This document shows positions 21,182 through 43,068 of a stretch of 64,000 bases of DNA, in pieces. The notes below the pieces were generated by a model, which saw only the letters and a program-made list of their open reading frames with translations, searched no databases and was not told where the DNA came from. Every line of letters begins with the position of its first letter. Position 1 is the first letter of the stretch. Origin of the DNA: Harmothoe impar (Eukaryota > Annelida > Polychaeta > Phyllodocida > Polynoidae). The stretch lies in contig OX381716.1 of assembly GCA_947462335.1 (NCBI GenBank), positions 3,778,438-3,842,437 of the forward strand, given 5' to 3'. The translations under genes and the position numbers were made by a program.

Positions 21182-21601
21182 TTACTCTTCAATTGATTTT
21201 TTTTTGGACACACAGTCAGGACAGTCCGGACAGTATGCTGCTCTACCTCTGTTTTGAAAGTCTTTCAAGGCAGTCTCCCTCCTTTCTAACTCATCATCCA
21301 TATGCTTCTTTATTTTCTTTGCAAACTGCAGAATTCTTTCCTTCCTTTCCTTCTCCTTCCTTTCTTCTTCCTTGATCTTTTCCCTGTCCTTTCTCTTCTC
21401 TTCCTTGAACTTCCTCACCTCCTCCCTCTCTCTTATCATGGCTGCCTGCCTTTCCAACCTCACTAGTCTCCGCTCCTCCATTTCTCTATCCATGTCTGGC
21501 TCATGCCACCCATACTCATAGCTAGTATCTAGCCATGGTGGTAAATATCCTAGCTCTCCTACTACACCGTCGTCTAATACTTTTTTCAGGAAATCGTCCA
21601 T
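21182..21601 (-). CDS. Short charged coiled-coil protein with a TATA promoter
   Basis: 139 codons from ATG 21601-21599. The frame extends six codons further upstream without an ATG. The N-terminal 40 residues (MDDFLKKVLDDG..., ELGYLPPWLDTSYEYGW) look globular. From about residue 45 to 115 the chain is almost pure Glu/Lys/Arg helix (REREEVRKFKEEKRKDREK) and should form a long single helix or coiled coil. The end has a CPDCPDC cluster that could bind metal. A TATAAAAG box 46-53 bases upstream of the ATG implies a short 5' UTR. Family unknown. It lies just upstream of, and divergent from, the promoter of the replicase cluster, so it may belong to the same element. Confidence 0.5.
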   Translation of the reverse strand: MDDFLKKVLDDGVVGELGYLPPWLDTSYEYGWHEPDMDREMEERRLVRLERQAAMIREREEVRKFKEEKRKDREKIKEEERKEKERKERILQFAKKIKKHMDDELERRETALKDFQNRGRAAYCPDCPDCVSKKKSIEE

Positions 21602-21646
21602 ACTGACGCAAGTCACCAAATGACACTTGTGTCTGTGTGGAGTGTG

Positions 21647-21654
21647 CTTTTATA
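21647..21654 (-). promoter_or_regulatory. TATA box (TATAAAAG) of the coiled-coil gene
   Basis: Minus-strand TATAAAAG, with a predicted start site near 21623 and an ATG at 21601. A second TATA-like box (catataaaag) lies at 21771-21762. Confidence 0.5.
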
Positions 21655-22330
21655 GGCCTAGCGTCTATGAGCGCGGACGTCTGTGTACTCCCCCCTCTCC
21701 TCCAAATTTTTTTTTTTACTGAACCTGACATAACCTAAAGTTGTGTTTCTTGCGGAGCACACTTTTATATGTTGCACTGTGTTGTGTCCTCAATAAAATA
21801 CCATTTGAAGTGCATAAAATACATCATAAGTTACATGTATGTATGCAAAAAATTTTTTAAAAAAATTATCGTCTTTGTTAAAGTTATTTAGATATTATTT
21901 CCATGGAGTTTTGATGGTTGTGGTCATGTTCATATAATGTTGGCCATAAGGTACACATAAAGTACTAACATAAACTTATAATAACATGAATGTGGTATAT
22001 TTTATTCTAACAGTAAATAGCAAACTCAAATTAGAACACATAACATTAAATATTATTGATAATATTAGGTATTTCATTTATAAACAAGCACAGCTTGCAA
22101 GACCCAGTCGACTTCAGTTGACAACGTTCAACTAATCCATCTTGTGCTGTATGCCATACACGTTTAAAATAATCTTATTTGTATTCATGTCTCAATATTT
22201 GAATTCCTATTTACATTATGCTTTATTTCTCCAACATATTCATTGCTTTGTTGTTCATCCAAATACAATGGTAATAGTAAAACTGGGCGTAAACCGGCCA
22301 TTGAGTAGGAAAGAAAACATCAAGAGTTGT

Positions 22331-22760
22331 GCGGTATCATTAAGCCCCGCCCCCATCTCCAAATATGGCACACCAACCAAAGGCGTGCGGTATCATTAAG
22401 CCCCGCCCACATTTCCAAATATGGCACGCCATCCAGTGGACGCCCATCAATCACAGGACACTGCCGCACGCTCATTGGTTGATGTGTCAGTGACGTCAGA
22501 GAAGTAGCGACAAAGTTTCACCGCCTGAGGATCATCAAAGTGTACTTTTGAAGAAATAAAACTATTTTTCATCAAAATATAGGTGTCAATGCATATTACA
22601 TCCTAAAATAACTCTTATTTTCGCTTTTCAATGGTTATTTTTGATGGAGAGTTGATGAAACGAGCAATTTATAGACCGTCACCGCCACTTCGGGTTTGTT
22701 GACATCGGACTATAAGAGAGCGCTTCAGACAAGTTTGAAGGCATTCTGAGTTCTTTCAAG
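22331..22760 (+). promoter_or_regulatory. Compact composite promoter of the replicase cluster
   Basis: Two 56-bp direct repeats each hold a GC box (ccccgccc at 22345 and 22401) and a perfect CArG/SRF box (ccaaatatgg at 22359-22368 and 22415-22424). An inverted CCAAT box (attgg, 22474) and a perfect CRE (tgacgtca, 22491-22498) follow. A TATA-like tataaga at 22711-22717 predicts a start near 22741, and a strong splice donor (aag|gtgagt) lies at 22760/22761. The element order and spacing are those of a signal-responsive RNA polymerase II promoter. Which genes it drives is inferred from position. Confidence 0.6.
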
Positions 22761-22987
22761 GTGAGTGTCAAGACGTGCGCACTGTTGGTTATTATTTTTG
22801 CTGTGGAAATGTCATGTAAATCTCAAGTAAATTTTGTGAAATTCAGGTAAAATTCAATTGACAACAAATTTATGCTACCTACGGTTATTTTAATGTGAAT
22901 AACTTCGGTAAATAATGTTAATTAAACACATATGTGGTTCATTCATTCATTCATTCACACATTCTTTCTTTTTTCTTGGACACCCAG

Positions 22988-23158
22988 TTCCCAGAATACA
23001 GCCTCGGCATTCTCCAAGTCAATTCACAGTTCAACATCATCATCATCATCATCATCAAGTCAATTTCAAGTTCAAGTTCTGAGATCAAGACACTCCACGT
23101 CAATCACTGTGTCAACTTCAAGTGTATATCAAGATCAAGACACTCCACGTCAATCACC
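22988..23158 (+). other. ATG-free leader exon (putative second 5' UTR exon)
   Basis: Bounded by an acceptor (ttcttggacacccag|ttccc) and a consensus donor (atcacc|gtaagt). I find no ATG in its 171 bases, as expected of a 5' leader. It contains (atc)n and two copies of 'agacactccacgtcaatcac'. With the first leader exon (about 22741-22760) it could be spliced to any acceptor downstream at 26811, 27355, 27951 or 28908. Confidence 0.5.
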
Positions 23159-23690
23159 GTAAGTTGTTTTCTTCAATATACAAAGAAATAGGAGAGTAAC
23201 TGTGTGTGTGTGAGTGGGGGGGGGGGGCAGGGGTCAGATGCTAAGACGTCACATCTCACAGTTCCTGTCCTATATTAGGGTTATTGAGTTGTTGGTTTAA
23301 AGCAAACACTTTTCAAAAAAATTGTCCGCATTTTCAGAATCATTTAGTCTGTATATCCTTCTTCTGGGCTTAAAGTTGAGAAGTATAATATGGCTAACTT
23401 ATGAATAAGAATAAAGTCATATTCCGTTGTAAAATGGAGCCACCTGTTTGCAAATTAGTCTTTTAAAAAAAACTACCGTAAATTCAGTGCAGTGTGTTTG
23501 CTTTTACACCATCTCAAGTTGTTTGTTTTATGTTTTCATGTGCATATCATTTTCTGGTGTCATGTAAGATGTATTCAAGTATGAAGTCGCCAAAATGCAC
23601 TGACTCACAAGGTCAAGACTAGGTCTTACCAGACCACAGTTTATGATCTTTGGACGGTGGTGTTTATGCACATATCATGACGAACCTTTT
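23159..23690. other. Intronic or unassigned DNA
   Basis: Follows the leader donor. Contains a G-run at about 23216-23228. No gene seen. Confidence 0.35.
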
Positions 23691-24035
23691 GAGAGTGTAT
23701 CAATCCCATAGCATTGGTATCATGCATAAATGCAGTCCTCACGAGTTCATGTCACTCTGCAAAGAAAGGGCATACTCCATCAACCCTTGAATGACAGCAT
23801 CATGGCCCAATGTATCATCCTCTTTTGTCGTCATTATGCATGAATGCAGCAAGTAACTCGTGAGGCGTGCATTCAAGCACCATGCCAACCCTACATGGTT
23901 GAGACACTCCGGGTCTGCATCATAACACTCGCTGGGGTTGGGGCTGCATTGGTGCATCATTCCATCAAATGTTAGCTTTCAGTGACATGCCATCCTTAAA
24001 GGGTTAAAGCACTCTGCTGTCTTAAAGGGTTAACA
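23690..24035. repeat. TTAA-type MITE, long copy
   Basis: Has several gatgcat/atgcatga boxes, 'gacatgccatccttaaaggg' followed by ttaa, and an internal inverted repeat. Confidence 0.65.
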
Positions 24036-24099
24036 AGTGTATTATTATGTTAAATTTGTTACTTGAAAAAATCTATAAAGAATTTATGGCAAGCATGTT

Positions 24100-24885
24100 C
24101 TAGCGGTATTATTATTATGATATGATCTCTATAATTTCAAAATTCTCAGATTTCAAAATTCCCCAACCCCCCCCCCCGGAAGTAACAAATTGACCCATTT
24201 TCCTGGAAATATTTTTTTCTGTAACTTCAAGGTCTATATTAGATTGTGTACAAGTGTCATATTTGAGAAATAGGCTTAACTCCCCGAAATGGCCACTTTA
24301 GTTTTGGTCACATTGGTCTGTCAGTCCATACCGGTACTGTGTAGTTTAAGTTGTGCTCAGATTTCAAAATTCCCCAACCCCCCCCCCACTGAAGTAAAAA
24401 ATTGACCCATTTTCCTGGAAATAATTTTTTCTGTAATTTCAAGGTCTATATTAGATTGTGTACAAGTGTCATATTTGAGAAATAGGCCTAACTCCCCGAA
24501 ATGGGCACTTTAGTTTTGGTCACATTAGTCTGTCAGTCCATACCGGTACTGTGTAGTTTAAGTTGTGCTCAGATTTCAAAATTCCCCAACCCCCCCAACT
24601 GAAGTAAAAAATTGACCCATTTTCCTGGAAATATTTTTTTCTGTAATTTCAAGGTCTATATTAGATTGTGTACAAGTGTCATATTTGAGAAATAGGCCTA
24701 ACTCCCCGAAATGGGCACTTTAGTTTTGGTCACATTGGTCTGTCAGTCCATACCGGTACTGTGTAGTTTAAGTTGTGCTCAGATTTCAAAATTCCCCAAC
24801 CCCCCCCCCCCCCCGCAAGTAACAAATTTCAAGGTCTATATTAGATTGTGTGCAGGTGTGATATTGGAGATATAGGCCTAACCCT
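24100..24885 (-). repeat. About four units of the 210-bp satellite, inverted relative to 46-49 kb
   Basis: Units start at about 24148, 24356, 24570 and 24779 with 'ctcagatttcaaaattcccc' followed by a C-run. Each contains 'accggtactgtgtagtttaa'. Reverse complement of the 46052-49225 array; the last unit is internally deleted. Confidence 0.9.
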
Positions 24886-25039
24886 TTATATGATATGTTT
24901 ATAGGTCAATCCTAAATTAACAAATTCTCCACTCAAATTTTCTCACTCTACACATAAGTACCGGTATCATAATTTCCATTATAAAAACTGGGACGCTAGA
25001 GAACTCATCAAAAATGCTAGCCTCTTTACCAACATTGGT

Positions 25040-25740
25040 GTGTCACATTTCACATATCTGTATTTATGCCTATTTAAAATTATGCGTGTACAGGTCAAGC
25101 GTAATACAGGAGAAATGGTAGCAAGGTCCACTTATAAATGCCGTTCCCACCAAGAACGTGTTTCTGTTAGTAGCATTGCCTATATAAAATGGGTATTTAT
25201 ATTTCAGAAGACCTATTCATGCAACTTGCACATACCTTAGTACACTACTTAACTGTTCAGGGGTGGCATCATCTATTTATGTATCATTCCTTTTGCCCTC
25301 ATTATACATCAATTTATGCATAAATGCATTTCTAGAAATGTGTATGTGTAACTGGCATGTGAAGCAACAATCTCATTCTGGCCAGTGCCATAGTCTATAT
25401 GTAAAAAAAAAAAAGTGGGCGTAGTGTGCCCTGTATAGTATAGGGGGCGCCACGTCAAGAATACATATCAGGCAGTAGCATTGCCTATGTAAAATCTCAA
25501 GATATAATTTTACAGGCTATTTCAGTCATACACAGGGCGTATTTGTATGGTACAGGGGGCGCCACCCCAACAACACCTATCAGCCAGTACTATTGCCTAT
25601 TTAAAACTGAAAATATAATTTTACAGTGTATTTCAGTCACACACGGGACGTATTTCTAGCACGCTGAAACTATAAGTACACATGTCAGCCAGTAGCCTTG
25701 CATATGTAGAAATTCAATATATAAGTCATGTAACTATGCA
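25040..25740 (+). repeat. Diverged tandem 105-115-bp repeat with GGCGCC box
   Basis: Units share 'agtagcattgcctatgtaaa' and 'gatataattttacaggctat'; two contain a run of g followed by ggcgccac. Direct-orientation relatives lie at 43180-43540 and 44262-44372. The following 25740-26760 shows no gene that I can support. Confidence 0.8.
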
Positions 25741-26766
25741 TGGTTCTATTCAACAATATTTTGGTCTGCCATCGTCACAAGTGTAACAGTCCAGTTACTC
25801 TGAAAATATCAAGGTTGTATCCATCTTTCAGAAATAATAACTAACAACTAAACTAATAACAGTTGTCTGCTTGGTTGACATGTCCTTTAGTTCATTCAAG
25901 TCCCTAAAGTGATAACTGTGCTGTATAAATTTAAATGCAGTGTTGTTGGGTTGTGTATTGAATCAAGCGTAGTGTTCCTGAGTTGTTTGAAATATCTTCC
26001 TTAGTTTTATGTTAGTAAGAAAGTAAATCCCGAGTTGGTCTTAAACCAAGGTTATGTGAGTAGGTGCATGGTAAACTGGGTGTACTCACAGTTAATGTCC
26101 CTGCCACTCTCCGGTAAATCCATGTCATGTCACATATTTCACATGCCACTGCCACTGCCAGTAACTCACAGGTATATTTCCTTTAGCACTTTGCAAGTGT
26201 GTTTATTTACCTTTAATGTGAGTTATGGCTTGCAGGTGGGCCTTTTTATCACATATCACCACATGTATTACCCACTGCCAAACACAGAAGTGTTCGTTTT
26301 CACAATCATTTCATGTGATTATAGCTGGCTTTCAAGGTGGGTCTAAAACACTATCATGCACAACACACTCATATCCCACTGCCAAAAATTTCATCTTAAT
26401 GTAACATCTCCTTGATGTGTTAATTAATGGCTTTCAAGGTGGGTAGTGATGGACGTGGTCTTTTGACCTGGCTGAATTGCATACACACATCTGCTCGGTC
26501 AACATCTGCTTGATGGGATACTGAGCAAGACCTTCTTGAATAAACTGATGACTTGACATGCTTTTGATGACGTCGCAGGCCAGTATGGTTGGGGTTGTGT
26601 CGTATACTGCATATCTGAAGGTCGGCAGGTCATTTTAGTCTTCTGTGGGTGGTAGTTCCATCTATAATAACAAGAGAAATTCAATTAAACATGGCGTTAA
26701 TACTAATACTAAAAATAATAATAATTATATATTTTATTCTATGGCTGTATACAATTCATCGAAAAG

Positions 26767-26774
26767 TATAAAAG
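26767..26774 (+). promoter_or_regulatory. TATA box (TATAAAAG) just upstream of small gene 1
   Basis: It lies 46-53 bases before the ATG at 26820, so small gene 1 could have its own start site near 26797. A splice acceptor (ccctttacag) at 26811 offers an alternative, spliced origin. Confidence 0.4.
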
Positions 26775-26819
26775 TAAAGACATTCTTTAATAAAAATAAT
26801 TCCCTTTACAGGTGTCAAT

Positions 26820-27263
26820 ATGAGCTGCGACGATTTATACCTGTTTACTGTGAGAGCACATCTTGAAATTACATATGCGCAAGAGATATGGGAGTTTATC
26901 TCAAAGGGACAAAAAGAAGGGGAACCTTTCCAGAGTTACAATAGTGAGTGTCATTATTGGTATTGTGCTATCAACAACATTATAAATACTCTGCAGAAGG
27001 AGGGAGTGTTTTACCAAGTAGCTATCCACAAAGACAGCACTTGCCTCCTGTCCGACATGGAGAAAGGTTGGGGTTGTATCCACATAATATTTCAAGATCG
27101 TTTCTGTCCATTGTTCCATAAGTGGACACTAATGGACAACTGCGGTCTGAGTTATCTCAGCTCGCTGTCAAGGGAGACTGCTTACATGTTTGAGCCCATG
27201 CAAGACAACGGAGAATTTTATGTCATGGAGACAGGCAGCACAGTCGCGATGGGGAACTTTTAA
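26820..27263 (+). CDS. Small gene 1, unrecognised 147-aa protein
   Basis: ATG lies 8 bases after an acceptor-like ttccctttacag. The 147-residue product is rich in aromatic and Cys residues (SECHYWYCAI, MEKGWGCIH, FQDRFCPLFHKW) and ends METGSTVAMGNF. No signal peptide or membrane segment is evident. I do not recognise the family. Possible donors (gtaggt/gtacgt) follow the stop at 27273-27282. It is the first of four small frames immediately upstream of, and in the same orientation as, the Helitron replicase. The shared acceptor-before-ATG arrangement suggests one transcription unit with alternative splicing. Confidence 0.6.
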   Translation: MSCDDLYLFTVRAHLEITYAQEIWEFISKGQKEGEPFQSYNSECHYWYCAINNIINTLQKEGVFYQVAIHKDSTCLLSDMEKGWGCIHIIFQDRFCPLFHKWTLMDNCGLSYLSSLSRETAYMFEPMQDNGEFYVMETGSTVAMGNF

Positions 27264-27368
27264 GTCAACTGGGTAGGTACGTTGTATTGTTGTTCGTCTG
27301 TTCTGGTGGGTAACACCTAACATGGTCTACTGTCTTCTTTTCTCAAAACCCACAGTCACAGTCACGAC

Positions 27369-27917
27369 ATGTTTCCCAAATTGAGAGACCTTGCTGCTGC
27401 AGCTCTTCCTGTATGTCAGCAGGATCACTGGCTTACTAAGCGTCTGTACGCCGATGTTTTCGCCGATGAATTGCAGGTTGTGGAGATTGAGCGACCGTCT
27501 ACAGAGCTTCATGTCAATGGTCCACTTACTATTAGTCCTCTTGCCTATGGGGTCGGGTGTTTTGTCTCTCTGAACGAGGATGTGACCTATCTTTTCCCGC
27601 ATTGTGAATATCATTTTCATTCTAAAACAATTTCAAACATGTGCCAGGACGACGTTACAATGTTCATTCAGGTGTACATACGGTCGCGTGTTGTTTCGGG
27701 AGATGACTTTCTCAAGTCCACTGACCTTCACTTATTCCCCATGACTGAAGCTGTCACCCTTTGTCTTCAGCAAGCTACAGTGCTGAGGTGTGCAGAGTAT
27801 AGTTCTGTGGTCAAACGCACCATACGAATAATACCCCTGAACGATATCTCTGTTACCTGTGTCGAAACATCCATATCCGAAGACCTGTGGTTTTCAATGA
27901 GTGCGGACGAAGAATGA
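27369..27917 (+). CDS. Small gene 2, unrecognised 182-aa protein (possible beta-barrel)
   Basis: An acceptor (cttttctcaaaacccacag) ends at 27355 and the ATG follows at 27369. The product has no signal peptide or membrane segment. Residues about 50-105 (ISPLAYGVGCFVSLNEDVTY..., TMFIQVYIRSRVV) alternate hydrophobic and polar residues like beta strands, and the order faintly recalls trimeric dUTPase-fold proteins. The catalytic dUTPase motifs are not present, so any such relation would be to the fold only. This is a weak inference that needs a structure prediction. The C-terminus is acidic (SISEDLWFSMSADEE). Small gene 3 starts 44 bases after the stop. Confidence 0.6.
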   Translation: MFPKLRDLAAAALPVCQQDHWLTKRLYADVFADELQVVEIERPSTELHVNGPLTISPLAYGVGCFVSLNEDVTYLFPHCEYHFHSKTISNMCQDDVTMFIQVYIRSRVVSGDDFLKSTDLHLFPMTEAVTLCLQQATVLRCAEYSSVVKRTIRIIPLNDISVTCVETSISEDLWFSMSADEE

Positions 27918-27960
27918 ACATATGTCTATTCTTCCCTCTTCCATTTTTCAGATAAAAGTC

Positions 27961-28407
27961 ATGCCTGTTTTCACCACACTGAAACTGTTGGCATTAAATG
28001 CTGTGGTGGATAACGGATTGGAAATGTCTCCTCTGCTTGTGGCTTCCAATCCCTTTCATACCAAAACAATTTTGGCAGTGGTCAAGCAGCCCATCTTTGC
28101 ACCTGTAAAAATTGCCCTACCTCGACACGTTCAGGTCAAGTCTACAGCATTTGAATTGGGGGTATATTTTTGTTTGTCTCCTGGCATTGATGTTGTCTGT
28201 CAACTGGCTGAGTACAACAAGGAAGACAATATAATATCTTACGGCCACACGGACAAGTCTGTACAGGCTGAGGCCTGTGGATACATGGTGGAGGTGTACT
28301 ATGATTCCAGCCTTTTGCGACCGCGAGAAATTGTTGCTGAAATGTTCACCCTTGGATTTAACACGTCCATCCCCCAGTATGCTGTGTCAGAGTACATCTC
28401 TGTTTAA
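27961..28407 (+). CDS. Small gene 3, unrecognised 148-aa protein (possible beta-barrel)
   Basis: A strong acceptor (ccctcttccatttttcag, ending 27951) lies 9 bases before the ATG; the frame itself extends further back, into gene 2's tail, without a better start. The product looks all-beta: APVKIALPRHVQVKS, ELGVYFCLSPGIDVVCQLAEY, and a C-terminal CGYMVEVYYDSSLLRPREIV stretch that resembles the last strands of the dUTPase fold. Catalytic residues of true dUTPases are not visible. It may be a diverged paralogue of gene 2. The frame ends in a single TAA and then stays open in the same frame into gene 4, which is unusual. Confidence 0.6.
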   Translation: MPVFTTLKLLALNAVVDNGLEMSPLLVASNPFHTKTILAVVKQPIFAPVKIALPRHVQVKSTAFELGVYFCLSPGIDVVCQLAEYNKEDNIISYGHTDKSVQAEACGYMVEVYYDSSLLRPREIVAEMFTLGFNTSIPQYAVSEYISV

Positions 28408-28503
28408 TATGGCTACTTCACCAATGATGACACAAGGCAGACCGAGGGGGAGTGTTCAGAGGGTGATCTGAGTTCAATTCAGGCGGCGGACTATTGCGTG
28501 GAC

Positions 28504-28878
28504 ATGTTCCCCACTCCCGAATCTCCAGGTAGTCTGCCACCGAATATGGTAGTGGAGTTTGAGGACAGAGAATTGGAGCAGTATCTGAACCAAATTGTTG
28601 ACATGGATGAGTCTGTCTGGCAGGCCTGTGATTGGGGTTCATTACCTGCGGAGACATTTCAAATTGGCAACTCAGCTATGTACCCTGAAAGCGAAGGATG
28701 GGGTGAAGTAGAGGAAAACCTAGAAGAGCAGTTGGAAGTCTCCACACGGACTACTATACTCCACAAAATGACCTTTCTTTCCACGGGGGAAGTATTATTT
28801 TCCCCGTCTTCTAGAGGGTTATCTCAACAGTGTTGTGAACTGTTGTATGGTGTGTACAACAGCGACAATATAAATTAA
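28504..28878 (+). CDS. Small gene 4, acidic 124-aa protein
   Basis: The first ATG is 28504, but the same frame is open back to the TAA of gene 3 at 28405-28407 (30 further codons, beginning YGYFTNDDTRQTEGE). It is either an independent protein, a readthrough extension of gene 3, or made from a message using the acceptor-like ttcaattcag near 28483. The product is strongly acidic with spaced aromatics (VEFEDRELEQYLNQIVDMDE, WGEVEENLEEQLE), a composition seen in transcriptional activation domains. That role is speculation. No family is recognised. Confidence 0.5.
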   Translation: MFPTPESPGSLPPNMVVEFEDRELEQYLNQIVDMDESVWQACDWGSLPAETFQIGNSAMYPESEGWGEVEENLEEQLEVSTRTTILHKMTFLSTGEVLFSPSSRGLSQQCCELLYGVYNSDNIN

Positions 28879-28968
28879 AATAATTTCTCTGCTCCCTCTT
28901 TCTTGCAGCCTTCTCTGCGTTGTGCAAGGCAACATAATTAGCCATACAATACCCGTACTACAGTTGCT

Positions 28969-31059
28969 ATGGACTCTGGAGTGTTCCATGAGCAATCGTC
29001 TCAGGAAAATGGTGAAAAGTGGACTGCCGATATGTGTGGAGTCCTCCGTAATGTCTATGCGGACGTGGTAGAACGCAGAAATTTAGCGCTCAGTCCAGCC
29101 GAGTTATCAGCCATGATGGAAGATCAATGGAACGTAATGTATCCTGATAGTCCCGTGAGTGGCCTCTCCTTAATTCGTATTTACCACCTGTTAGAGGAGA
29201 AAACCCCTGCTTACTTTAATATCAGACCACCTGCCTATTCAGAATGTGTCAAGAAAGAGCCGCCAGAGAAGAAAAAGACAGTCTACACAAAGTGGACCGA
29301 GGCCATGACTGAAAACCTGGAAATGTGTGGTGCGGCAGCGTTGAAAATCGAAGCAGAGTTTAGGTTTACGGAGGAATGTAGTCTAAAATTTGGTAAATTG
29401 ATATTGGTTCAATGGAAGAAAATTTACCCAGACGCCAAGCAGTCGTCCCAGGCACTCGTAAAGCGTTACCAAAAGCTCAGGGAGAATGCAGAGCTCAGGG
29501 GATCGGTACAGTTCCCACGCGACGCTGAGTGGTTCGCAAAAAGAGACGCAGCCATTCGGTCTCATGGTCCAGGTGGAGATGCGGGGTCAGAAGAGCAGTC
29601 AGACGTTCCTCTGTTGCCCAAAGGACCAGGTGGAGACGGGTGTACAGATGGCGTGGATTATTTCAACAAAGACAAGAAGCGCAATAGAAGGGGAAAACCT
29701 ACAGTATGTTATTATGAATCTTCCCAATCTGAGGACCAATCTCAGGAACAGGCTAAGCGTAGAGCATGTGACATGGATGTTGACTTTGTTTTGGACGAGC
29801 CCTTTCTGCAACAAAATTCACATGTGGTTGGTGTAGACATTTCTGCAGAAGAGGAGGTCGATCCCCCGGTCAAATACAAGCGAAAGACAAAAGGTCCAGT
29901 TGTTTTTGATGAGGACGAAGATGTTGAAGACGAGCATGAGCAGGAAGACGTCAACGCTCCGGTGGCTGATGGAACGGCCATAGTTAAGGTAGTGAAGGCG
30001 CGAGTCAAGTGGACTCCTCATTTGGTGGAAATGCTGAAGCTTGCTATGCAGCGTACAGAAGAGCAAATTTGCATGCCCAACATCAATAGCTTCCATGGAA
30101 TGAGGTCACATCTACTTGCTGCACATTTCAATAATCTTGTGCCAGAGTGTAATGTACACCAATCAAAAATAGTCAGTAAGGCCAGTAAGCTTAAGAAGGA
30201 AAGAAAGAAAGCCAAATGGTCTGATTTACCAGGTGAAGGAAAAGAGGCTGAGACGGGACATAACGCCGGCCAGGCTGACATGCCTAATGACACGTGTTTC
30301 AATTTAAGCATTCTTAGTACTATTGTGTATAACCGTCTAATCGAGACGCAGGTAGAGCGTAGCCGAGATCGGCTGTTTCAGGCAGTTTGCTTTAATTGTG
30401 GCATGTTGCTTTATGGCAATGTAAAGTATGCTCATTTGTTCCACCGCAAGAAAGGACCGAATGAACCCCCTGCGCGTATAACATATTCGATGAGTGACTA
30501 CGAGTTTGAGCTTCCCTACGAGTTCACCGATTTGGATGGAAACACGGTGGTACATAAGTTCTATGCCTGTTATCAGTGTAGACGTCGTCCTATGAATTAC
30601 TACCCATGCACTGCCAACATCAATCCGGATCCATCTCATCCTGCCATCTTTCGGTTGCCTGAGGTTGTCAGTGCACTGCGCAACGATCACGAGAAGGGCA
30701 ATGCCTCTCTTGCCAACATATTTTCTACTACCCAGAAGGCTAACAACAAGGCACGACGTATTTGGGTCCACAAAGTTGGAGAAGTCAATGTTTTGCCGAG
30801 AGTTGCACATAACTACGCAGGCCTGTACGGTTACATGGTCAGACGTCCGGACGAGGAGGCGCAGAATGTCTCTGATGAGAGAATAGTTGCAGCTGTGAAA
30901 TTCTTTGGTCGAAACAATTTTCTGTTCAAAGATTTCAAATCAAACTATGAGACACTGTACCGGCATGCCGACATAGATCTACTTCCCACTGAGACAGACT
31001 GTCCAGATGCTCGAGGCCACCCTATATGTGAACACCTCAACGATGAATCAGTAGCATGA
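28969..31059 (+). CDS. N-terminal half of Helitron-type replicase: SANT-like repeats and zinc segment
   Basis: 696 codons in the same frame as the replicase that follows, ended by a single TGA (31057-31059). Three SANT/Myb-like helical repeats begin at KW residues 17-18, 108-109 and 347-348, probably for DNA or protein binding. Between the second and third repeats lies a charged linker with basic and acidic blocks. A Cys pair CFNC (474-477) and a second, YACYQC (C534, C537), make a plausible zinc ribbon. The stretch up to the stop resembles the conserved region that precedes the Rep domain in animal Helitrons. A strong acceptor (ctccctctttcttgcag) ends at 28908, 60 bases before the ATG. I infer one protein of about 2,190 residues with 31060-35553, interrupted by a nonsense codon or read through. 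Confidence 0.8.
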   Translation: MDSGVFHEQSSQENGEKWTADMCGVLRNVYADVVERRNLALSPAELSAMMEDQWNVMYPDSPVSGLSLIRIYHLLEEKTPAYFNIRPPAYSECVKKEPPEKKKTVYTKWTEAMTENLEMCGAAALKIEAEFRFTEECSLKFGKLILVQWKKIYPDAKQSSQALVKRYQKLRENAELRGSVQFPRDAEWFAKRDAAIRSHGPGGDAGSEEQSDVPLLPKGPGGDGCTDGVDYFNKDKKRNRRGKPTVCYYESSQSEDQSQEQAKRRACDMDVDFVLDEPFLQQNSHVVGVDISAEEEVDPPVKYKRKTKGPVVFDEDEDVEDEHEQEDVNAPVADGTAIVKVVKARVKWTPHLVEMLKLAMQRTEEQICMPNINSFHGMRSHLLAAHFNNLVPECNVHQSKIVSKASKLKKERKKAKWSDLPGEGKEAETGHNAGQADMPNDTCFNLSILSTIVYNRLIETQVERSRDRLFQAVCFNCGMLLYGNVKYAHLFHRKKGPNEPPARITYSMSDYEFELPYEFTDLDGNTVVHKFYACYQCRRRPMNYYPCTANINPDPSHPAIFRLPEVVSALRNDHEKGNASLANIFSTTQKANNKARRIWVHKVGEVNVLPRVAHNYAGLYGYMVRRPDEEAQNVSDERIVAAVKFFGRNNFLFKDFKSNYETLYRHADIDLLPTETDCPDARGHPICEHLNDESVA

Positions 31060-34000: not shown

Positions 34001-35553
34001 TCATTCTCCTGAGAAACATGGAAATAGAGGCCGGATGGGTCAATGGCACTAGGGCTGAGGTTGTGCGAATCGTCAGCCAGAACTGTATTATCATATGTCA
34101 TCTGGTCGACGGTACGGAGTTGTTGTTGGGACGTGTTGAACAAGATGTCGCTTACGAGCATGCAACTGGCTCGCTAATGAGGAACCAGCTGCCTATTACA
34201 CTGGGATGGTGTCTTACAACTCACAAGGTCCAAGGTATGACACTGGATCGGGCGTATGTTAAAATGGACGGTAAATTCTTTGCCAGTGGTCAGGCGTACA
34301 CCGCACTGAGCAGAGTGCGACGGTGTTCTGATCTCACTCTGTTTGCCTTCGAACCAGTGGCAGTACGTCTCAGCCCGAGACATGCCTTAGTGCTGCAATA
34401 TATGGAGTCTACTAATGTCCTTTCTCCTGACGCCAAAGACATCAAGAGTAAAGAGATGAGGGCTCTGGTGAATCTCATAAAAAGTACACCGTATGACCCA
34501 GAAAAAGAGCTGAAAAGGCAGGCCCGAAGTAAGAAATTCAAAAAGTTTATCAATGACTCTGTCAAGAGGGCCAAAGGAATTCCAGTTTCAAATCCTAGGA
34601 ATAAATCCAAAACGTCGAAAAGGCCAGCTCCAAGTTCAAGTCCGAGCAAGAAATCAAAGACGTCGAAAAGGCCAGCTCCAAGTTCAAGTCCAAGCAAGCC
34701 AAATAAGCGAAAGAGGGCGTCGGATCCTCCTGCTACTAAGGTTGCCGACGAGGCTGGTCATGATAATGCCGCAGAGCAGCCAATACCTGGATCTGGTCAA
34801 GCTGGGGAATCCTGCCACTCTCCGCCTGTTTCCAAAGGTGTTTGTCGAACTATTCCCAAGGTGCGACAAGGAGGCATAGTGCGTTACCAAGCCAGGGCCG
34901 GTCCCCTTTCTGACGCCCCAGAAGTGTTCATGTGGAAGAAGTCTCTGGCTAACCACATGCTGAACGAGGACTGTCATCGTACTCCCCTCATACCAGTCGA
35001 CCGGTTTCCTTCTATGGTGCCCCAAAGTCATGTCACATCTCTCAATGATGCTGGCATGGGACTTGACGTCATAAAAGGTGATGGAAACTGCTTCTACAGA
35101 GCGATATCAAAGGAGTTGTTTGGCACACAGGAATACTACCACGTTATAAGGTTGCATGCCATTCACTTTCTGCAGCTCCATCTGGATGTCCATATGCCTG
35201 TTATTACTGATGACATGGCCATCCAACGTCTTCTGCGTAATCCTGATGTGTTGATAAGTCGACAGGATGCTGCTGACTATGTAGATAGGCATTACGAAGA
35301 CAGGACATGGGCGTATAGCGCAAACTGCTATGCTGTGGCGGGCATGCTGGGTTGTGACATCCGAGTACTTAAACTCAATCCAAAAGGTGACTCGGTTTGG
35401 CACGTGGTCTCTCCGTTGGTGGCACTGGACGACAGGATTGTCCCCGCCCCGCCACAGCATTACACTCCTGTTATCTATAATGAACAGGTTGAAGGTCAGG
35501 GCACACATTTCACTCGTTGTTACAAAATGGCACCGCTGCCTGATGTAGAGTAG
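31060..35553 (+). CDS. Helitron Rep-helicase with OTU protease domain
   Basis: Rolling-circle transposase of the Helitron superfamily; the OTU domain points to the Helentron/Helitron2 type. Open from the codon after the TGA (SVPLDPERGLPRLNPHEDI); no nearby ATG starts it, so it is a continuation of 28969-31059. Numbering from the TTG at 31087: HUH motif H253-I-H255; two catalytic tyrosines Y380 and Y384 in MYLAKYISK; PIF1-type helicase with Walker A GAAGTGKS (710-717), Walker B IIDE (784-787), GDPAQLPA, and the C-terminal motif TALSRVRRCSDL. A Lys/Ser/Pro linker with a duplicated SKTSKRPAPSSSPS follows, then an OTU cysteine-protease domain with DGNC (D1332, C1335) and a likely catalytic H1474. 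All catalytic residues look present, so decay is limited to the one stop. Confidence 0.95.
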   Translation, partial: SVPLDPERGLPRLNPHEDIIGVQHSREFAVDLNKGISYRDKQLEAKAWTWLFPYGHGSWFERSDLKPMQYIKLRVLCYDSRWRSDINYSFFWVDRLIKDRLFYVAKTRVITTEPGTEVPNVGQLRESNSSTEGKFSQFGSTLPNTVVGSKSYWKARLLELVAVSTELGQPDFFITLTQNDGWPELQTVVKHGYGAYPTVPDGRICTDSNTSSTVLFSVETTVAFFKRFAQFKSYVLQNENGPIGKVRDSWYRVEFQGRGAIHIHMVVWCEPGTIPADAVRAEFPRPESREQHKDSVKEMRNVVGQFQIHECRPARCFPRVAGKIIRKCKYGFPFELTDEDGPAEGGIRYNYKRRHEEDVRVSSYNLSILLTWQAHMNIQRVTHSGWEMYLAKYISKAEPSFDMLLPEETSEVERFLRTRLIGRLEADCILLGYNMCRCTREVVFCLTSINPNMRCMKRNIHLKGDPDSTDIYYDNGLMKYLDRPSQLKDMLYAEYVKCYRLVASVTSDLHEEQEEYHPEFEDDAPPLKDAKGRLLKRRKQGKEAVPRWRFCLPYGESQEAYYEQILVQRFPWTTDTIGSIISPDNVSKTYQEECAIRDLIDKQSDAETMLREAAVRGFDMRFIKTIAQHMVDKEWMTTEETDALLGQIEENRPPVVERRKQVEVDDEDEFDMGDMGVRAPPMEDIDALKAQLNADQRRALDYMNGEIAAERQLLVNVVGAAGTGKSFLLKTFIACCRQQHHLTVKVMASTGIAAHLIGGCTVHSAFKMDIKAQSFLYKGRVIAKMMRETDVFIIDEFSLLEAKVMMEIDNVMKGMSCGKYNHTPFGHRHVVLLGDPAQLPAIDLDIYGIWTWNGFFKSIILNEVMRQDDPEFLAMLQDVRRGNLNQTSLATLRKRVFPPSSYPKHAADYGVNDAVIVSHRVDRDSINNAILENMEGEETVFTAIDLNKQGNPATAEESKNIDIFQKSSFPREIRLKVGARVILLRNMEIEAGWVNGTRAEVVRIVSQNCIIICHLVDGTELLLGRVEQDVAYEHATGSLMRNQLPITLGWCLTTHKVQGMTLDRAYVKMDGKFFASGQAYTALSRVRRCSDLTLFAFEPVAVRLSPRHALVLQYMESTNVLSPDAKDIKSKEMRALVNLIKSTPYDPEKELKRQARSKKFKKFINDSVKRAKGIPVSNPRNKSKTSKRPAPSSSPSKKSKTSKRPAPSSSPSKPNKRKRASDPPATKVADEAGHDNAAEQPIPGSGQAGESCHSPPVSKGVCRTIPKVRQGGIVRYQARAGPLSDAPEVFMWKKSLANHMLNEDCHRTPLIPVDRFPSMVPQSHVTSLNDAGMGLDVIKGDGNCFYRAISKELFGTQEYYHVIRLHAIHFLQLHLDVHMPVITDDMAIQRLLRNPDVLISRQDAADYVDRHYEDRTWAYSANCYAVAGMLGCDIRVLKLNPKGDSVWHVVSPLVALDDRIVPAPPQHYTPVIYNEQVEGQGTHFTRCYKMAPLPDVE

Positions 35554-35871
35554 CACGTCTGGAACAGTCATTGTGTATATATGTAGTCAGCCACTCAAAA
35601 ATATTTTTAAACCAATTAAAAACTGCAGTCCTCACCTATGTCAAACGGTGTGTTTGTGCATCATCAATGCAGTCCTGGCCGAAAACACAGTTCAATTTGT
35701 GTGGCCAGTTTGTGCATCTGCAGTCCTGGTGTGGCATACGGCTAATGTCAACCAGATTGTGCATACAGTATAAACCATAACAAAAATCAAAGCATCGCTA
35801 CAGACATCTTTCATCTAGGTGGGTAAAAAATCAAATAAGTGTTACCGTTTATTTATTTATTTACTATTCAT

Positions 35872-35877
35872 AATAAA
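35872..35877 (+). terminator. Poly(A) signal AATAAA for the replicase cluster
   Basis: AATAAA about 320 bases after the replicase stop. I see no comparable well-placed signal between small genes 1-4 and the replicase, which fits 3'-co-terminal transcripts. Confidence 0.5.
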
Positions 35878-36082
35878 CGCTCATTTGAAATACGCACAAA
35901 TGTTATTAAAGAAAAGAAATATTTCATTTGCTGATATCTTAGCTGTATTTATCTGTCAATTGTGTAAGAATGTTTTATCTTGATAGTCATTGTACTAATA
36001 CTACTACTACAGCTACTAATAAGTTATCGGTAGCTGTAATTGTCTTACCATATTCTTAAAGTCTGCTTGTGTTGAATGGCAG

Positions 36083-38600
36083 ATGAGTGACGTCTGTACG
36101 GCTGCAGACCTTGGACATGTGCGAGGGGTGGTGGTGGGCGACTCCCTGCTGAGGTGGGCCGAGCTCCCGGGCTTTGTATACATACCAGTGGCAACGAGCG
36201 CACAGTTAAGATGCAATCTGCAGAAAGTTCGTAAGGAGATTGGAAACTGCCTCGTGGTATGTTGCGGGTCCAACGACCTGGCGGACGGATCAAGTTACCA
36301 GGATGTGGTATCACATTTAATCGAGTTCAAAAATGAGGTAACTATCTAGGCTTCACAGTATTATACGTTAAAGTACTATAATCTAATAATAATACTACTA
36401 TCCTATAATATAATAATATAAGTCATAGGTAATGTATTGTACAAAGTAGTAGCGGCCTGATAATTTACGAAAAACTACATTTTTTATGAGAAAGGGTTAA
36501 AAAATATGGAATATTCAGCAGACACGGTTTGTTATCTTCCACATATCTCTGTTTGTGACCGTGAAATTTTGGTGTAGGGCAGGGGCAAGCCTAAGCGGGA
36601 AAATTTTCACTTTGAATATTTTGTGTCGTGGCTATGCGGACTACGACAATCGTGTACCAAATATCATAATTTACAAAAAACTTTATTGGGTGAGAAATGT
36701 TTGGGGGGGGGGGGGGAAATGCAATCTTTACCATAATCAGTGTGTGAATAATATTATTGTCAATATTTTTAGGCCAGCAGGCTTTTCGATGAAGTTTTAA
36801 TATGTACTGTGCCACGGCGCCGACAGCTCAAACCCTTCGTGCGGAAGACTCTGAACAAGTGAGTGCAATGTTTTTCAAGTCGGTCAAATATAAAACATGG
36901 AATACAGTTTACTTTAGGAATGCGTACATGTCTGTGTTGCCAGTAGTTTAATTTTTTTTTTAAAGAAAAATGCAATTGGTCAAGAAATTAAATTATCTTT
37001 AAGAAAGTTGGTGTTCACTTTCAACCCATCAACATTTCATTGCCTTGAAATTTGGTGTAGTAAATGAAACGCTAAGTTTTAATAAGTGACTCACCTTAAC
37101 AATATCTGAATTTTCAGACGCATCCGTTCCCACTTCGAGGGCAGGGTGATTGACTTGGATCGTGCCCTGCCCGAGTTTCGGCTGTTCCGCAACGACCGCA
37201 TCCATCCATTGCGGGCGGGTCTAGTCAGAATCGAGAAAGCAGTTAGTGATGTGGTTAAGGTAAGTCTTAAGCACTATAACATTGAATCATTTAAAGAACA
37301 AATGCCAAACTTTGCACCATAGTGAAAACTGTTATTTTCATTTTATAAAAATAATAAAAAATAAGCAGACATAATAATAAAAGTAGCATTGATCTATATG
37401 AATAGTATAAATTTCATTCTGCCATCTATTTCTGCCATGTATTATTAAGTCTACACATTTTCTGCCACCAGCCTCTTAGCATGGCTGACAAGCCGGAGGC
37501 AGCCAAAGAGGAGGCTGAGGTGCCCATGGAAGCCGACAATGGGGTGGCAGTAGGGGTAGACGATGGGTCGTTCGACCAGGTTCAAGAGGTAACTATAAAT
37601 CTATGTTTTTAATGCTTCATACAGTAACACTGAATTAACTAAATGGTCAAACAGCACTACAAGGCACATGTTACTTATCTCATCATAGTTGAAATGCTGC
37701 GTGCTCATTTTTCACCGGTAAAAAGGTCATCTATTTTTTCCTGTGCTGTTCTTTTCAGACAGTTGTTTGTATATTTGTTGCTATTTGTTATCAATTCAGA
37801 TCAGTCAGACAGGTGGAGACGGAGCAGCACGGGTTGGTCAGATGCTAAGAGGGGGGGGACGGGGTATCATCAGGAGCCGACTCGGCCACAAATCAGTAAG
37901 TATCTCACATATAGAACTTCTTTGGTTTACTTTGTCTGTTATTTGTTAACGTGTATAACATGCATTACAGTTCTATACTTCTGTATGCAGTTGCTCTTTG
38001 TCATACAGGGTCAGTTTACACGTACAGTGCTTTTGGACTTACTTTGGTTTTCTTTACAGAGGGGTGGCGTACATAAACGCCAGAACGACAAGAGGCGACA
38101 TGCTCGTGGTGCTCGTGGTGGTCGGGTCCCGCCAACTCGTGGTGGTCATGCTGTATATGGTGGCGCCAACCACAAGCGGGTCCTGGGAAGTCGTGGTGCA
38201 GGGCCAGTTCACTCCATTGCGCATCCAGGGCCAGTTCACTCCGTTGCGCGTCCAGTGGCAGTTCCAGTTCCTGCGCCGCTGCCGCGTTCAGCCAAACCAA
38301 CAATTGTGATCGAAAATGTAAGTGCTTTTACAAACTTATTGAGTAAGCGCAAGTGGTGTATTTCTTTTTTTAAATTCATTTTGAAGTATTATGGTATGGA
38401 AGGGTGTTTAATGTGACAAATAGAATCGTCCATTCAATATTAATCAATTAATACATTAAATCATTTAATACATTCTCACTATGCACCGCTATGTGGTATA
38501 TCCTGCCATTGTTTAATGTGAAACATCACAATGTTAAACTTACCTGTGGTTCACTTTCTCTTTATTGTAGGCCACGTTCTACTGGGGTACAGAGATGTGA
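36083..38600 (+). CDS. Seven-exon SGNH/GDSL-type hydrolase with basic Gly/Arg-rich tail
   Basis: Exons 36083-36337, 36773-36858, 37118-37259, 37472-37588, 37800-37895, 38060-38317 and 38571-38600 join in frame (984 bases, 327 residues). Every intron is GT-AG. Exon 1 has the catalytic block GDSLLRW and the GSND block (CCGSNDLADG). Exon 2 has the core strand ILICTVPRRR-like (EVLICTVPRRR). Exon 3 has NDRIHPL, carrying the Asp and His of the triad. The fold is thus complete within 160 residues. Exons 4-6 encode an acidic linker and a tail rich in Gly, Arg and His (RGARGGRVPP, repeated GPVHSxAxP), likely nucleic-acid binding or nuclear. The ATG directly abuts an AG (atggcag|ATG). It follows the replicase in the same orientation. 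Substrate unknown. Esterase-like SGNH domains are known from ORF1 of some LINEs, but here the gene is spliced and separate. Confidence 0.8.
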
Positions 38601-38792
38601 ATAAGTCACCATGAGCCATTGAGCTGCAATCAAAACCGTCATGTATATAATATATTATAAGTTATCTTCTCCACACCTATGTATATATATCACTACCATA
38701 CATCTTATATTTTTTCATCTATTTATATATTGTATTTAATCTATGTATATATATCAGCTAATGTCAGCCAGAAAAATTATCAGAATAATGGA

Positions 38793-38798
38793 AATAAA
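38793..38798 (+). terminator. Poly(A) signal AATAAA for the SGNH gene
   Basis: AATAAA 193 bases after the stop at 38600. Confidence 0.6.
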
Positions 38799-38949
38799 AT
38801 TAATTCTTAAATTATATTGAACTCAACGACTTTGTTGCCTTCTTTGCCACACATTGAATATAGATCAGAAAAAGGAAAATAAATAAAAATTCCAAAAAAA
38901 ATCCTAGGTTTAGAAAAATTTTAAAAGAAAAAAGGTCAAAGGTAAAACA

Positions 38950-39600
38950 CATGGCTCATTCGGGCTAACTCCCGGGGGGGGGGGGCACTCTCACATTTAT
39001 GTATACCATGTGTGTACATCACCCTTAATTTAGACCCCTTTTACCGGGACAAAATCCACAAGCAACACTACTGTTTTGGCGGCATAACTCCCAGAAATGT
39101 GCAAAAATCAGGACCTTTTTCATGGGACATCACCCCAAATTTGCCAAAATCAACCCCTTATTTAACAGAAACTGTGGGACATTTTGGGTGGATATTCCAG
39201 GCCTAAAAACATATCCCTTTTCGCTCAAAATTGGCTGAAAAAGGACGCACAATGGCGGGTCGGCCCGTACCCGCCTGTGGGGCTAAAAAAGCACCCCTTT
39301 CCCGGTATTTTGTGTACGCATATAGTTACTATAGATGACATAGGGAGTGCCCCCCCCCCCCCGGGGGGCTCACTGGAAATTGAGAAATTTAGTATTCCCG
39401 CTCATATTAGATCCAGGCTGTGGGCGGGGATATTGGAGCGCCAAATTGGTTCATCATATAGAGTAATAAACTGCACTTACGGTTAGTTGAACTAAGTAAC
39501 TCCTGTCTCTGTTGTTCAATCATGCTGTAACGGCAATCTTGCACTCATACTAATTCAAATATACTTAGTAAATAACTGTTCAACATGGATATAGCCTAAT
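38950..39600. other. G/C-run-containing repeat DNA, no gene seen
   Basis: 'ggctaactcccgggg'-type sequence and homopolymer G or C runs at 38970-38985 and 39350-39370. Open frames here look fortuitous. Confidence 0.4.
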
Positions 39601-39619
39601 CGTGTTGTTTACTTGAAGC

Positions 39620-39913
39620 CGTTAGAAACCGGAAGTGACAGTCGCGCTGGTACCCGGGTTGAAATAACAGCGGGCCCAGCGTCCCAACTCAACTTTTCCC
39701 GCCTCCTTTTTTTCATGTTTTGGAGTAGTCGTCTAGCATGAATACTTAACCAAATAAACTAAAATAATGCAACAAAGCAGTATGAATAACGTAGAAATCT
39801 AATAACGTGTTGGCCCACGCTAGTCGCTACCTAGAAGAAACACATGTATTGTATTTGACGGCTTTCTGTCTGCTATGGAAAAACGCTGTTATCCGGTCAG
39901 CTTTGTGACGTCA
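39620..39913 (+). promoter_or_regulatory. Putative promoter of the spliced proline-rich gene
   Basis: An Ets-type site (accggaagtga) at about 39629 and a perfect CRE (tgacgtca) at 39906-39913 lie just upstream of the first coding exon. No TATA box is seen. Confidence 0.35.
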
Positions 39914-39956
39914 TGAAAGGCATGTCAAGTCAGGATCCAACATCCAACAAGGCAAC

Positions 39957-42019
39957 ATGTCGGCACACACTTGCCAACTTTTCCTGATGGGGAATCTGGC
40001 GATTTATCGCCCCGTGGTCGAGCCCTGGCCTGGATCTCCGGGAGGGATTTTCAGAATTCTCCATCGATATCAAGACATAAGCACTGGGACGTAAGTATCA
40101 TATAACAACTAGACAATCAGTTGCGCTATGGCTATCTGATAAAAAGTCGGCCATTTTTAAATACCTGCACCCACCCAGTAATCCCTGCTATATTTCTAAC
40201 AGTGTTAGAAAGGTGCCTGCAGAGGGGTAAAAAATAACCCTTACGTACGTTTCCAGTTTTTGAGGAACACTTGAATTGTGGTATTCACCTTTTTTCTTTG
40301 GAAATGTGCATGTGTCACTATGCTTCAATGGGTCCTTCCATTATAAAGCCCCCAGACGGGGGGGGGGGGGGTGGCTGTGTCAATTGTTGAATTCAAGAAA
40401 TGCCAATGTCCCTTGTCGATTATAAGAAATAGGTCTTGTCCCTTGTCACTAGACCCATGTCGATTTGTCGATTTTACCTGTCTGGAGCCCTATTATATAC
40501 CTTTAAGGGAGTGATCATTTTTTAACAACAAGGGGGGGGGGCGGTGTTCTTCCGCGGGATTCCCCCCCCCCCGGTAAAGGGGTTCAAATCGCCCCCCACC
40601 TAAAGGGGTGTAAAAAAACGGAAAGCCAACCCCATTTAGGGGGGGGGTGCTGTTTGGAAAAAGAAAAATACGTCTCTTTATTCTTTTTCTTTTATTCAAT
40701 TGTAATGCATGTACTAAATCACCTATTTTTCTCTCCACTTTCCACAGAGTTTTTTACTCGTACGAGGTGCTCTTTACGCCGGCCTGTCCCTGGGCCCCGC
40801 CCGGATGGCACCTCCCGTCTAACCCTCCGCAGGCACAGGCCTTGGGCCCCATGGGCCCTTTTGGGTTGGCACCGTTCGTGTGGGGGCCAACCCCCCAACT
40901 CCTAAATGGAAATTGAGGTAGGTTTTTTTGAATAGAATAATTCATTATGAACTCCACACTACTGCTTTATCCTGTAAGGGAGTGTTCATTTATTATTTAC
41001 AGGGGGGGGGGTGGTGGGTATGTGGGGGGGGGGCGTAAACATTTCCCACCCCTTCTCAGGGGGGTGGGTAAACAATTCTTAATCCTCTTGAGGGGGGGGG
41101 GCGTAAAAATTTAATTCCCTTTTTACCCAAGAAGCCCGCCCGTTACTATAGTTCAAATGGGGGGGGGGTTCGGCTAGGGAGGCGCGAAACATTACACGTT
41201 CTCTAGAAGGGGGGGGGGGCGTGATTATTTTTTCCCCCTTCCGCATGAAATCTCACCACCCTTCCCCCCCTGTAACTGTAATGTGGAATTCAATGCTGGA
41301 CAGAAATACCAAATTTCTCTCCCCCCCCCACTCCCTGAGTTAGAAAATTAAGCAAATGAGCTAGGAATATTTTTAAACATTAATTGAGGGTCTATATTTA
41401 CGTCTGTGTAAGTGGCAGTTTTTAGAATTTGGGCTAACTCCCTCAAAAAGTAACATTACTTTTGGTCAAATTGCAGTCTAAGGCAGTACTTAGAAGTTTA
41501 ATTCTGCACAGAGATACCACATTTCTCTACCCATATCCCCTGAGTCAAAAAATTTACCAAATGAGCTAGGAATACTTTTAAACCTAAATTTAGGGTCTAT
41601 ATTTACATGTGTGTGAGTGGCAGTTTTTAGACTTTGGGCTAACCTCCTAAGAAAAAAAGATTACTTTTGATCACATTGGACGCTCAGGCAGTACTGTGGA
41701 GTTTACGGTCAGACGAAAATACCAAATTTCTCTCCCCCCAGCCCCCGAGTCAAAAATCAAGCAATTATGTCTCATCTTTTTCTGGTTATGCCATGGTTAC
41801 AACGTAATAAACTATTTCATTTTACCTATTTCAGCTTTTCCCATACCAGCACATTCTGCCCACGTAAGGACATACTGCCCACGTAAGGAGAAGGAGTTGA
41901 ATATCTACACGGACGACCCTCCGTCCCCGCCTCCCACCTTATACTATACGAGCTGGGCATCTATCAAACACTTGGCACTAAATCTACAGGATACAGTTGA
42001 CTGCGTCTCTGACCTTTGA
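39957..42019 (+). CDS. Spliced small proline-rich gene with in-frame TGA (putative)
   Basis: Exon 1 39957-40090 (ATG TCG GCA, ends before gtaagt) joins exon 2 40748-40917 in phase to give STGT-VFYSYEVLFTPACPW... and a Pro/Trp-rich stretch (WAPPGWHLPSNPPQAQ, FVWGPTPQLLNGN), then TGA at 40914-40916: 100 residues. Exon 2 ends one base later at a good donor (gag|gtaggt). A third exon (acceptor ctatttcag at 41834, 41835-42019) is open in exactly the phase set by the first two exons and adds about 61 residues (FPIPAHSAHVRT, YTDDPPSPPPT, DTVDCVSDL). So the gene either stops at 100 residues with a 3' UTR intron, or is a 162-residue gene carrying one nonsense codon. Family unknown. Confidence 0.4.
40500..41280. 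repeat. Family starting 'aagggagtgatcattt' with long G-runs
   Basis: Several G-run-rich pieces begin with aagggagt(g/a)(a/t)tcattt (40506, 40977). Relatives occur at about 16255, 56093 and 59354, the second of these at the inner boundary of the right duplication arm. Exon 2 of the proline-rich gene lies within this stretch. Confidence 0.6.
41285..41730 (-). repeat. Two diverged units of the 210-bp satellite family inside an intron
   Basis: Two about 205-bp units with 'gggtctatatttac', 'gggctaactccct' and 'acttttggtcaaattgcagt' correspond to the satellite at 24.1-24.9 kb (same orientation) and 46-49 kb (reverse), but are much more diverged. Confidence 0.7.
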
Positions 42020-42940: not shown

Positions 42941-43068
42941 AATATTGGAAGGTGAATGTGTCACTTGGTCACAGACGTAGGGGTACAGTAGACTGGACAG
43001 ACCCATGTCTCTCTAGTCTATATCACCCCCACGTCTGGGACCAAGTGACACATTCACCTTCTAATATT
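42941..43068. repeat. 128-bp hairpin MITE
   Basis: Arms 'aatattggaaggtgaatgtg'+tcacttgg and ccaagtga+'cacattcaccttctaatatt' are inverted copies around a central portion that includes two further short inverted pieces (acgtaggggt / acccccacgt). Confidence 0.85.

Follow-up and report, generated by a model that had tools for sequence, protein, structure and literature searches.

In a 64,000-nucleotide (nt) stretch of the genome of the annelid Harmothoe impar (contig OX381716.1 of assembly GCA_947462335.1, positions 3,778,438 to 3,842,437; hereafter the window, whose own numbering is used below), we found a compact block of genes arranged around a Helitron-family replicase. This block is probably one copy of a Helitron-family rolling-circle transposon that has an OTU domain, no apurinic/apyrimidinic (AP) endonuclease and a block of accessory genes; in this copy a single stop codon interrupts the replicase. 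All genes of the block lie on the forward strand within 14.1 kb, in agreement with the original prediction, which had placed them on one strand within 15 kb. The gaps between successive genes are 105, 43, 96, 90 and 529 nt. From this layout we infer that the genes of the block form one mobile unit. The predicted Helitron-like element with cargo is upheld for the Helitron-like replicase. The first small gene is supported as a real gene by its equal-length relative of 83% identity; for small genes 2-4, an SGNH-type gene and a last small gene, shared strand and spacing are what suggest that they belong to the element.

The replicase and its domains

The replicase occupies positions 28969 to 35553 as a single frame with one in-frame stop codon at 31057-31059, which the original prediction had missed. 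This copy of the gene is interrupted by that stop, and the frame is otherwise open. In Pfam searches, the second part of the replicase matched Helitron_like_N (PF14214, E = 2.8e-23), PIF1 (PF05970, E = 9.9e-27) and Pif1_2B (E = 6.9e-9). The Pif1-type superfamily 1 helicase lies at 33130-34437, and an OTU-type cysteine protease domain with the motif GDGNC is C-terminal, at 35074-35376 (PF02338, E = 1e-6). A sequence search of the PDB with the replicase returned PIF1 helicases, Helraiser (7lcc, over its helicase part), and OTUD1 and OTUD5.

Individual motifs agreed with the domain matches. The HUH motif RGAIHIH is at 31831-31851 and the Y2 motif YLAKYISK at 32224-32247, and a motif search also found Walker A, Walker B and the OTU cysteine (GDGNC). 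Both histidines of the HUH motif, both tyrosines of the Y2 motif, the lysine preceding the second tyrosine and the Walker A residues were invariant over the 22 rows of alignment A1, which comprises the window and 21 of the 69 relatives described below. In the first part of the replicase, two CxxC pairs (CFNC and CYQC, 30388-30579) form a candidate zinc site, with all four cysteines invariant in 8 aligned rows (alignment A3 comprises 7 relatives). The replicase has an HUH nuclease with two tyrosines fused to a Pif1-type helicase, the combination by which the Helitron superfamily is recognized. The prediction of a replicase with HUH/Y2, PIF1 and OTU domains is confirmed by these matches and motifs.

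Relatives of the replicase and its place among Helitrons

A protein database search with the replicase, in which 8,000 candidates were scored, identified 69 proteins at E ≤ 0.001, on contigs of up to 3.6 Mb. The closest relative, P0001, was 69% identical to the second part of the replicase and 48% identical to the first. Because P0001 is one uninterrupted chain of 2,288 amino acids (aa) that covers both parts, the two frames in the window represent one interrupted gene. Narrow regular expressions, applied to these relatives, many of which are partial proteins, recovered the HUH motif in 19 of the 69, Y2 in 53, Walker A in 57, Walker B in 29 and the OTU motif GDGNC in 28. By Pfam annotation, an OTU domain was present in 34 of the 69 and an endonuclease domain in six.

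In bacterial genome contigs, the best 80 of 138 loci matched within query residues 672-1202, which are the helicase and what follows it. Matches were found in 540 phage records, each at less than 60% identity; the five among the matches listed covered residues 695-1147. In scans that reach mostly close relatives, viral contigs matched the replicase in the helicase region only, with 54 loci in one scan at 22-31% identity.

The original prediction had likened the replicase to the Helentron type, whose defining feature, in the account given in PMC4067079, is an AP-endonuclease fused at the C-terminus. We found no match to PF03372 or PF14529 in the window replicase in Pfam searches at E up to 0.1. 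A tree of 53 rows (the second replicase part of the window and 52 of the 69 relatives; quick method, midpoint root) paired the window with P0001 (support 100) within a group of 24 rows (support 99). The six endonuclease-bearing rows, labelled from the Pfam annotation of the relatives, formed a separate group (support 100) away from the window. The tree omits 17 relatives: those shorter than 1,140 aa and, taken out by hand, P0027, P0053, P0055, P0058 and P0065, in which PF14214 is missing. Because the program flagged several long branches, finer placement in the tree is unsure. The absence of an AP-endonuclease match and the position apart from the six endonuclease-bearing relatives led us to reject the Helentron label. 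Because that match is absent, we regard the replicase as Helitron-family and, by its defining domain, not a Helentron.

Four small genes ahead of the replicase

Four small genes had been predicted, and four intronless open reading frames (ORFs) are present on the forward strand between 26820 and 28878, in excess of what shuffling produces. Gene 1 (26820-27263) encodes 147 aa and gene 2 (27369-27917) 182 aa. Gene 3 (27922-28407) encodes 148-168 aa depending on the choice of start, with ATGs at 27922 and 27961, and gene 4 (28504-28878) encodes 124 aa from its ATG (124-126 by start choice). There were four ATG-initiated ORFs of at least 120 codons in the 2.26 kb from 26701 to 28960, compared with a mean of 0.03 and a maximum of one in 300 block shuffles. 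Codon log-odds, trained on the replicase, were 0.125, 0.129, 0.102 and 0.087 for genes 1-4, compared with a mean of -0.076 over 752 null stretches, 2.1% of which reached at least 0.1.

Genes 1 and 3 were the small genes searched against the large protein database. Gene 1 had a single homologue cluster, P0070, of equal length (147 aa) and 83% identity, present on 10 contigs (three sources; maximum length 17,061 bp). Judged by its sequence, gene 1 is real and conserved, and we regard its status as a gene as settled. Searches of Pfam and PHROGs at E up to 0.1 gave no match for any of genes 1-4. Below the cut-off, gene 4 matched DUF4046 (E = 0.18) and P0070 matched only YCF90 (E = 0.018). A sequence search of the PDB with genes 1-3 gave no relative below E = 0.2, the best matches being at E = 0.52 for gene 2 and E = 0.21 for gene 3.

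Two further ideas about these genes were examined and set aside. Genes 2 and 3 were unsupported as paralogues, with a local score 1.63 standard deviations above shuffles that was matched by 27 of 400 of them. Gene 3 has a strong acceptor-like site with an exon start at 27952. A shared leader spliced onto each gene was nonetheless unsupported overall: an exceptional acceptor lies within 70 nt upstream in two of six genes (gene 3 and the replicase; binomial tail 0.055), as scored with a weak matrix, set by hand from general knowledge, in which three of the six internal acceptors of the SGNH-type frame score just 2.6-4.3.

A single composite promoter had been predicted ahead of the block. What is present at 25151-25712 (forward strand) is a set of four arrayed 40-nt repeats, each ending in a TATA-like sequence, with start-to-start distances of 305, 112 and 105 nt. 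This array is a candidate promoter or initiator-binding array; related units also occur downstream of the block. The leftmost 5.6 kb of the interval covered by the original prediction also contains a charge-rich ORF on the minus strand (21182-21619), which is not counted with the block.

An SGNH-type gene and a last small gene downstream

Downstream of the replicase, an open spliced frame of seven exons (36083-36337, 36773-36858, 37118-37259, 37472-37588, 37800-37895, 38060-38317 and 38571-38600, forward strand) encodes 327 aa, with GT-AG at all junctions. Exons 1-3 encode the SGNH-type N-terminal domain, and the remainder of the protein is basic and rich in RGG. GDS, GxND and DxxH blocks occur in order in exons 1-3, an arrangement that was found in none of 200,000 shuffles. 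By these motifs the protein appears to be of SGNH type, which falls short of proof. A polyadenylation signal (AATAAA) is located downstream of the frame, at 38793. Directly 3' of this gene, at 38965-39365, is a stretch resembling a miniature inverted-repeat transposable element, with G-run and C-run inverted ends as read by eye.

The small spliced gene of the original prediction corresponds to an open two-exon frame at 39957-40916 (39957-40090 and 40748-40916, forward strand) encoding 100 aa. The open frame is present, with no Pfam match, and its membership in the block is doubtful.

Evidence against a single element

Several results weigh against reading the whole block as one element. The SGNH-type frame has seven exons, compared with the intronless rest of the block. 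Its N-terminal domain alone matched Lipase_GDSL_2 below the Pfam cut-off (E = 0.09, residues 50-148). The whole 327-aa protein had no lipase match in Pfam, just DUF4611 below the cut-off (E = 0.041), and no SGNH match in the PDB, where one cytochrome P450 appeared at E = 0.39. What holds of the predicted SGNH hydrolase is therefore the spliced frame with its ordered motifs, not a family match above threshold. Among the small genes, the large protein database offered 15 word-sharing candidates for gene 3, none of which scored, although gene 1 had a homologue there. The gene's own frame was the top of six by codon statistics in two of the four small genes, and a reverse frame slightly outscored it for genes 3 and 4 (0.095 versus 0.087 for gene 4).

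Ends and further copies were also looked for. A scan with strict criteria for Helitron2-type terminus pairs (hairpins plus asymmetric terminal inverted repeats, ATIRs) found none between 19751-26760 and 38821-46050; 20 shuffles gave one match in total, and the ends could lie outside the scanned stretches. No canonical Helitron1 3' end (a hairpin with a perfect stem of at least 7, then CTRR) was found in 38601-46050. Helentrons have subterminal inverted repeats and insert at TT. A tblastn search of the window found no additional locus for the replicase, for any of genes 1-4 or for the SGNH-type protein. Finally, the longest contigs of P0001 (12,722 bp) and P0070 (17,061 bp) are different ones.

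Alternative explanations

There is a limited chance that the element consists of the replicase, with or without genes 1-4, and that the SGNH-RGG gene and the last small gene, which happen to lie downstream, belong to the host or to another transposon. Because it has seven exons and the rest of the block is intronless, the SGNH-type gene may be a neighbour. Its own poly(A) signal also sets it apart from the genes beside it, a 529-nt gap separates it from the replicase, and the scans for Helitron2-type pairs and canonical 3' ends located no ends. In addition, PMC4021074 reports texim-type SGNH genes of amphioxus and sea urchin that lie away from Helitrons. However, the SGNH-type gene shares its strand and close spacing with the replicase, and the same account describes an SGNH-Helitron association in fish, where teximY has up to 15 exons.

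It is unlikely that the block is a chance pile-up, in which a decayed Helitron sits beside unrelated ORFs in a repeat-rich, inverted-duplicated region. The window is rich in satellites, inverted arms and retrotransposon ORFs, the replicase has a stop, and no relative was found for gene 3. Against this, the frames are otherwise open, the small ORFs are far above shuffled expectation, and gene 1 is conserved at 83%.

We consider it very unlikely that the OTU replicase, the conserved four-gene block and the SGNH-RGG protein make up a multi-gene rolling-circle entity able to exist outside the chromosome. If they did, gene 1, 83% conserved and present on 10 contigs, would be the mark of a replicon that is mobile, perhaps transmissible, and that links Helitrons with viruses.

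The virus-like entity of the original prediction, an integrated rolling-circle virus or virus-like replicon with the small genes as structural or early proteins, is the least probable reading and gained no positive support: a compact block of small genes of no known family ahead of the replicase and the spread of the gene 1 relative over contigs from three sources, up to 17 kb long, would suit it, but there was no match to a capsid, packaging protein or polymerase (Pfam, PHROGs; PDB sequence search for genes 1-3), scans of viral contigs, which reach mostly close relatives, found no relative of gene 1 and matched the replicase in the helicase region only, and relatives of the replicase lie on contigs of up to 3.6 Mb.

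Repeats and neighbouring features

Repeats surround the gene block on both sides. TATA-like direct repeats occur at 25107-25640, 43251-43532 and 44262-44371, one pair being 98% identical over 110 nt. A 210-bp satellite at 24145-24882 reappears in inverted orientation at 46052-49223 (87-96% identity), flanking the block, and a 205-bp array at 41299-41756, between its two sites, is related to it at about 66%. Patchy inverted arms (11242-19752 and 62709-56106) share about 71-95% identity, and their axis, at about 37-38 kb, is close to the gene block. The arms showed no conspicuous long ORF, and no family scan was made on them. The satellite, the TATA-like repeats and the arms could be traces of the element, other repeats or a segmental inversion.

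Other features were noted in the same region. A small minus-strand ORF at 43782-44031, starting MAGIGYVAVPRAVIDEMVEKL, lies between two direct-repeat units and has Pfam matches below the cut-off only. A coding fragment with two C2H2 zinc fingers lies at 42463-42600. ORFs of non-long-terminal-repeat retrotransposons, with endonuclease and reverse transcriptase domains, are present at 1824-4793 (plus strand) and 49746-52673 (minus strand). Upstream of the minus-strand frames of this long interspersed nuclear element (LINE) is a NADAR-domain ORF (53780-55066, minus strand; E = 6e-24), possibly the LINE's ORF1. An imperfectly palindromic motif of 55-80 nt around GAGTTACTCGCC occurs in about a dozen copies, including those at or near 5873, 7077, 9316, 11263, 17144, 18660, 58314, 62528 and 62624.

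Proposed mechanism

If the block is a Helitron-family transposon with accessory genes, known biochemistry of the family suggests how it would move. The HUH/Y2 domain would nick and join one strand and the Pif1 helicase would unwind the DNA in rolling-circle transposition, with replication displacing a single strand for insertion at another site. DNA binding may be the task of the CxxC pairs and the basic regions. The OTU domain may remove ubiquitin from proteins of the element or the host, shielding the replicase from degradation; according to PMC9741609, tegument-like deubiquitinases encoded by Helitrons are active, and OTU domains of transposons had yet to be tested. The four small genes could be accessory factors, perhaps regulators or DNA-binding helpers, and the SGNH-RGG protein could be a nucleic-acid-binding esterase that helps transmission or localisation. 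SGNH esterases are described in CR1 elements and in retroelements of rotifers (PMC5408684, PMC6431247). Those in transposons or beside fish Helitrons have been proposed to act in targeting to membranes or in transposition and transmission (PMC5408684, PMC6431247, PMC4021074).

Comparison with known elements and significance

Helitrons are usually described as encoding one large protein, with occasional captured domains. To our knowledge, Helraiser, the canonical bat Helitron, has no OTU domain and no extra genes. Its homology to the window replicase covers the helicase only (PDB 7lcc, E = 3e-27).

Several published elements share parts of the arrangement in the window. Helentrons, as described in PMC4067079, have an HUH/Y2-Pif1 replicase, and an OTU protease and additional ORFs are reported for them; unlike them, the window has no AP-endonuclease match and groups apart from endonuclease-bearing relatives. 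Another is proto-Helentron-Pi of Phytophthora infestans, an element of about 14 kb with a RepHel protein that has no endonuclease and with extra hypothetical ORFs. It differs in having a SET-domain ORF, and the description in PMC4067079, by which we compared it, mentions neither an SGNH gene nor an upstream block of four small genes. Helitron2 (as characterized in PMC3627910) likewise has a RepHel replicase without an endonuclease domain; our scan of the window detected no termini with the hairpins and ATIRs of Helitron2. The fish texim genes resemble the window in that a multi-exon SGNH gene is located near a Helitron coding region. The order differs: in fish the Helitron follows texim on the 3' side or sits within the last texim intron, whereas in the window the SGNH-type gene is 3' of the replicase, and no block of four small genes appears in the description of texim-Helitron pairs used for this comparison (PMC4021074). 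Bdelloid rotifer Terminons and long-terminal-repeat elements with GDSL ORFs, as presented in PMC6431247 and PMC5408684, are also transposons with SGNH/GDSL esterases and other accessory ORFs, but they are retroelements rather than HUH/Pif1 transposons.

Some components of this arrangement are therefore already known from these accounts, namely extra ORFs in an endonuclease-less Helitron relative (proto-Helentron-Pi, PMC4067079) and a multi-exon SGNH gene located next to a Helitron (PMC4021074). Among the matches listed from the open-licence literature, none described an OTU replicase lacking an endonuclease together with four compact small genes, one of them 83% conserved, and a 3' SGNH-RGG gene.

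If a Helitron relative does carry a compact set of small genes of its own, including a strongly conserved one, then some rolling-circle transposons would prove to be rich in genes and equipped with auxiliary functions, in the manner of Polintons and Terminons. A second and differently arranged association of an SGNH gene with a Helitron, beside that of fish texim, would suggest that rolling-circle transposons have recruited esterases repeatedly, and a role for such esterases in transmission would therefore be testable.

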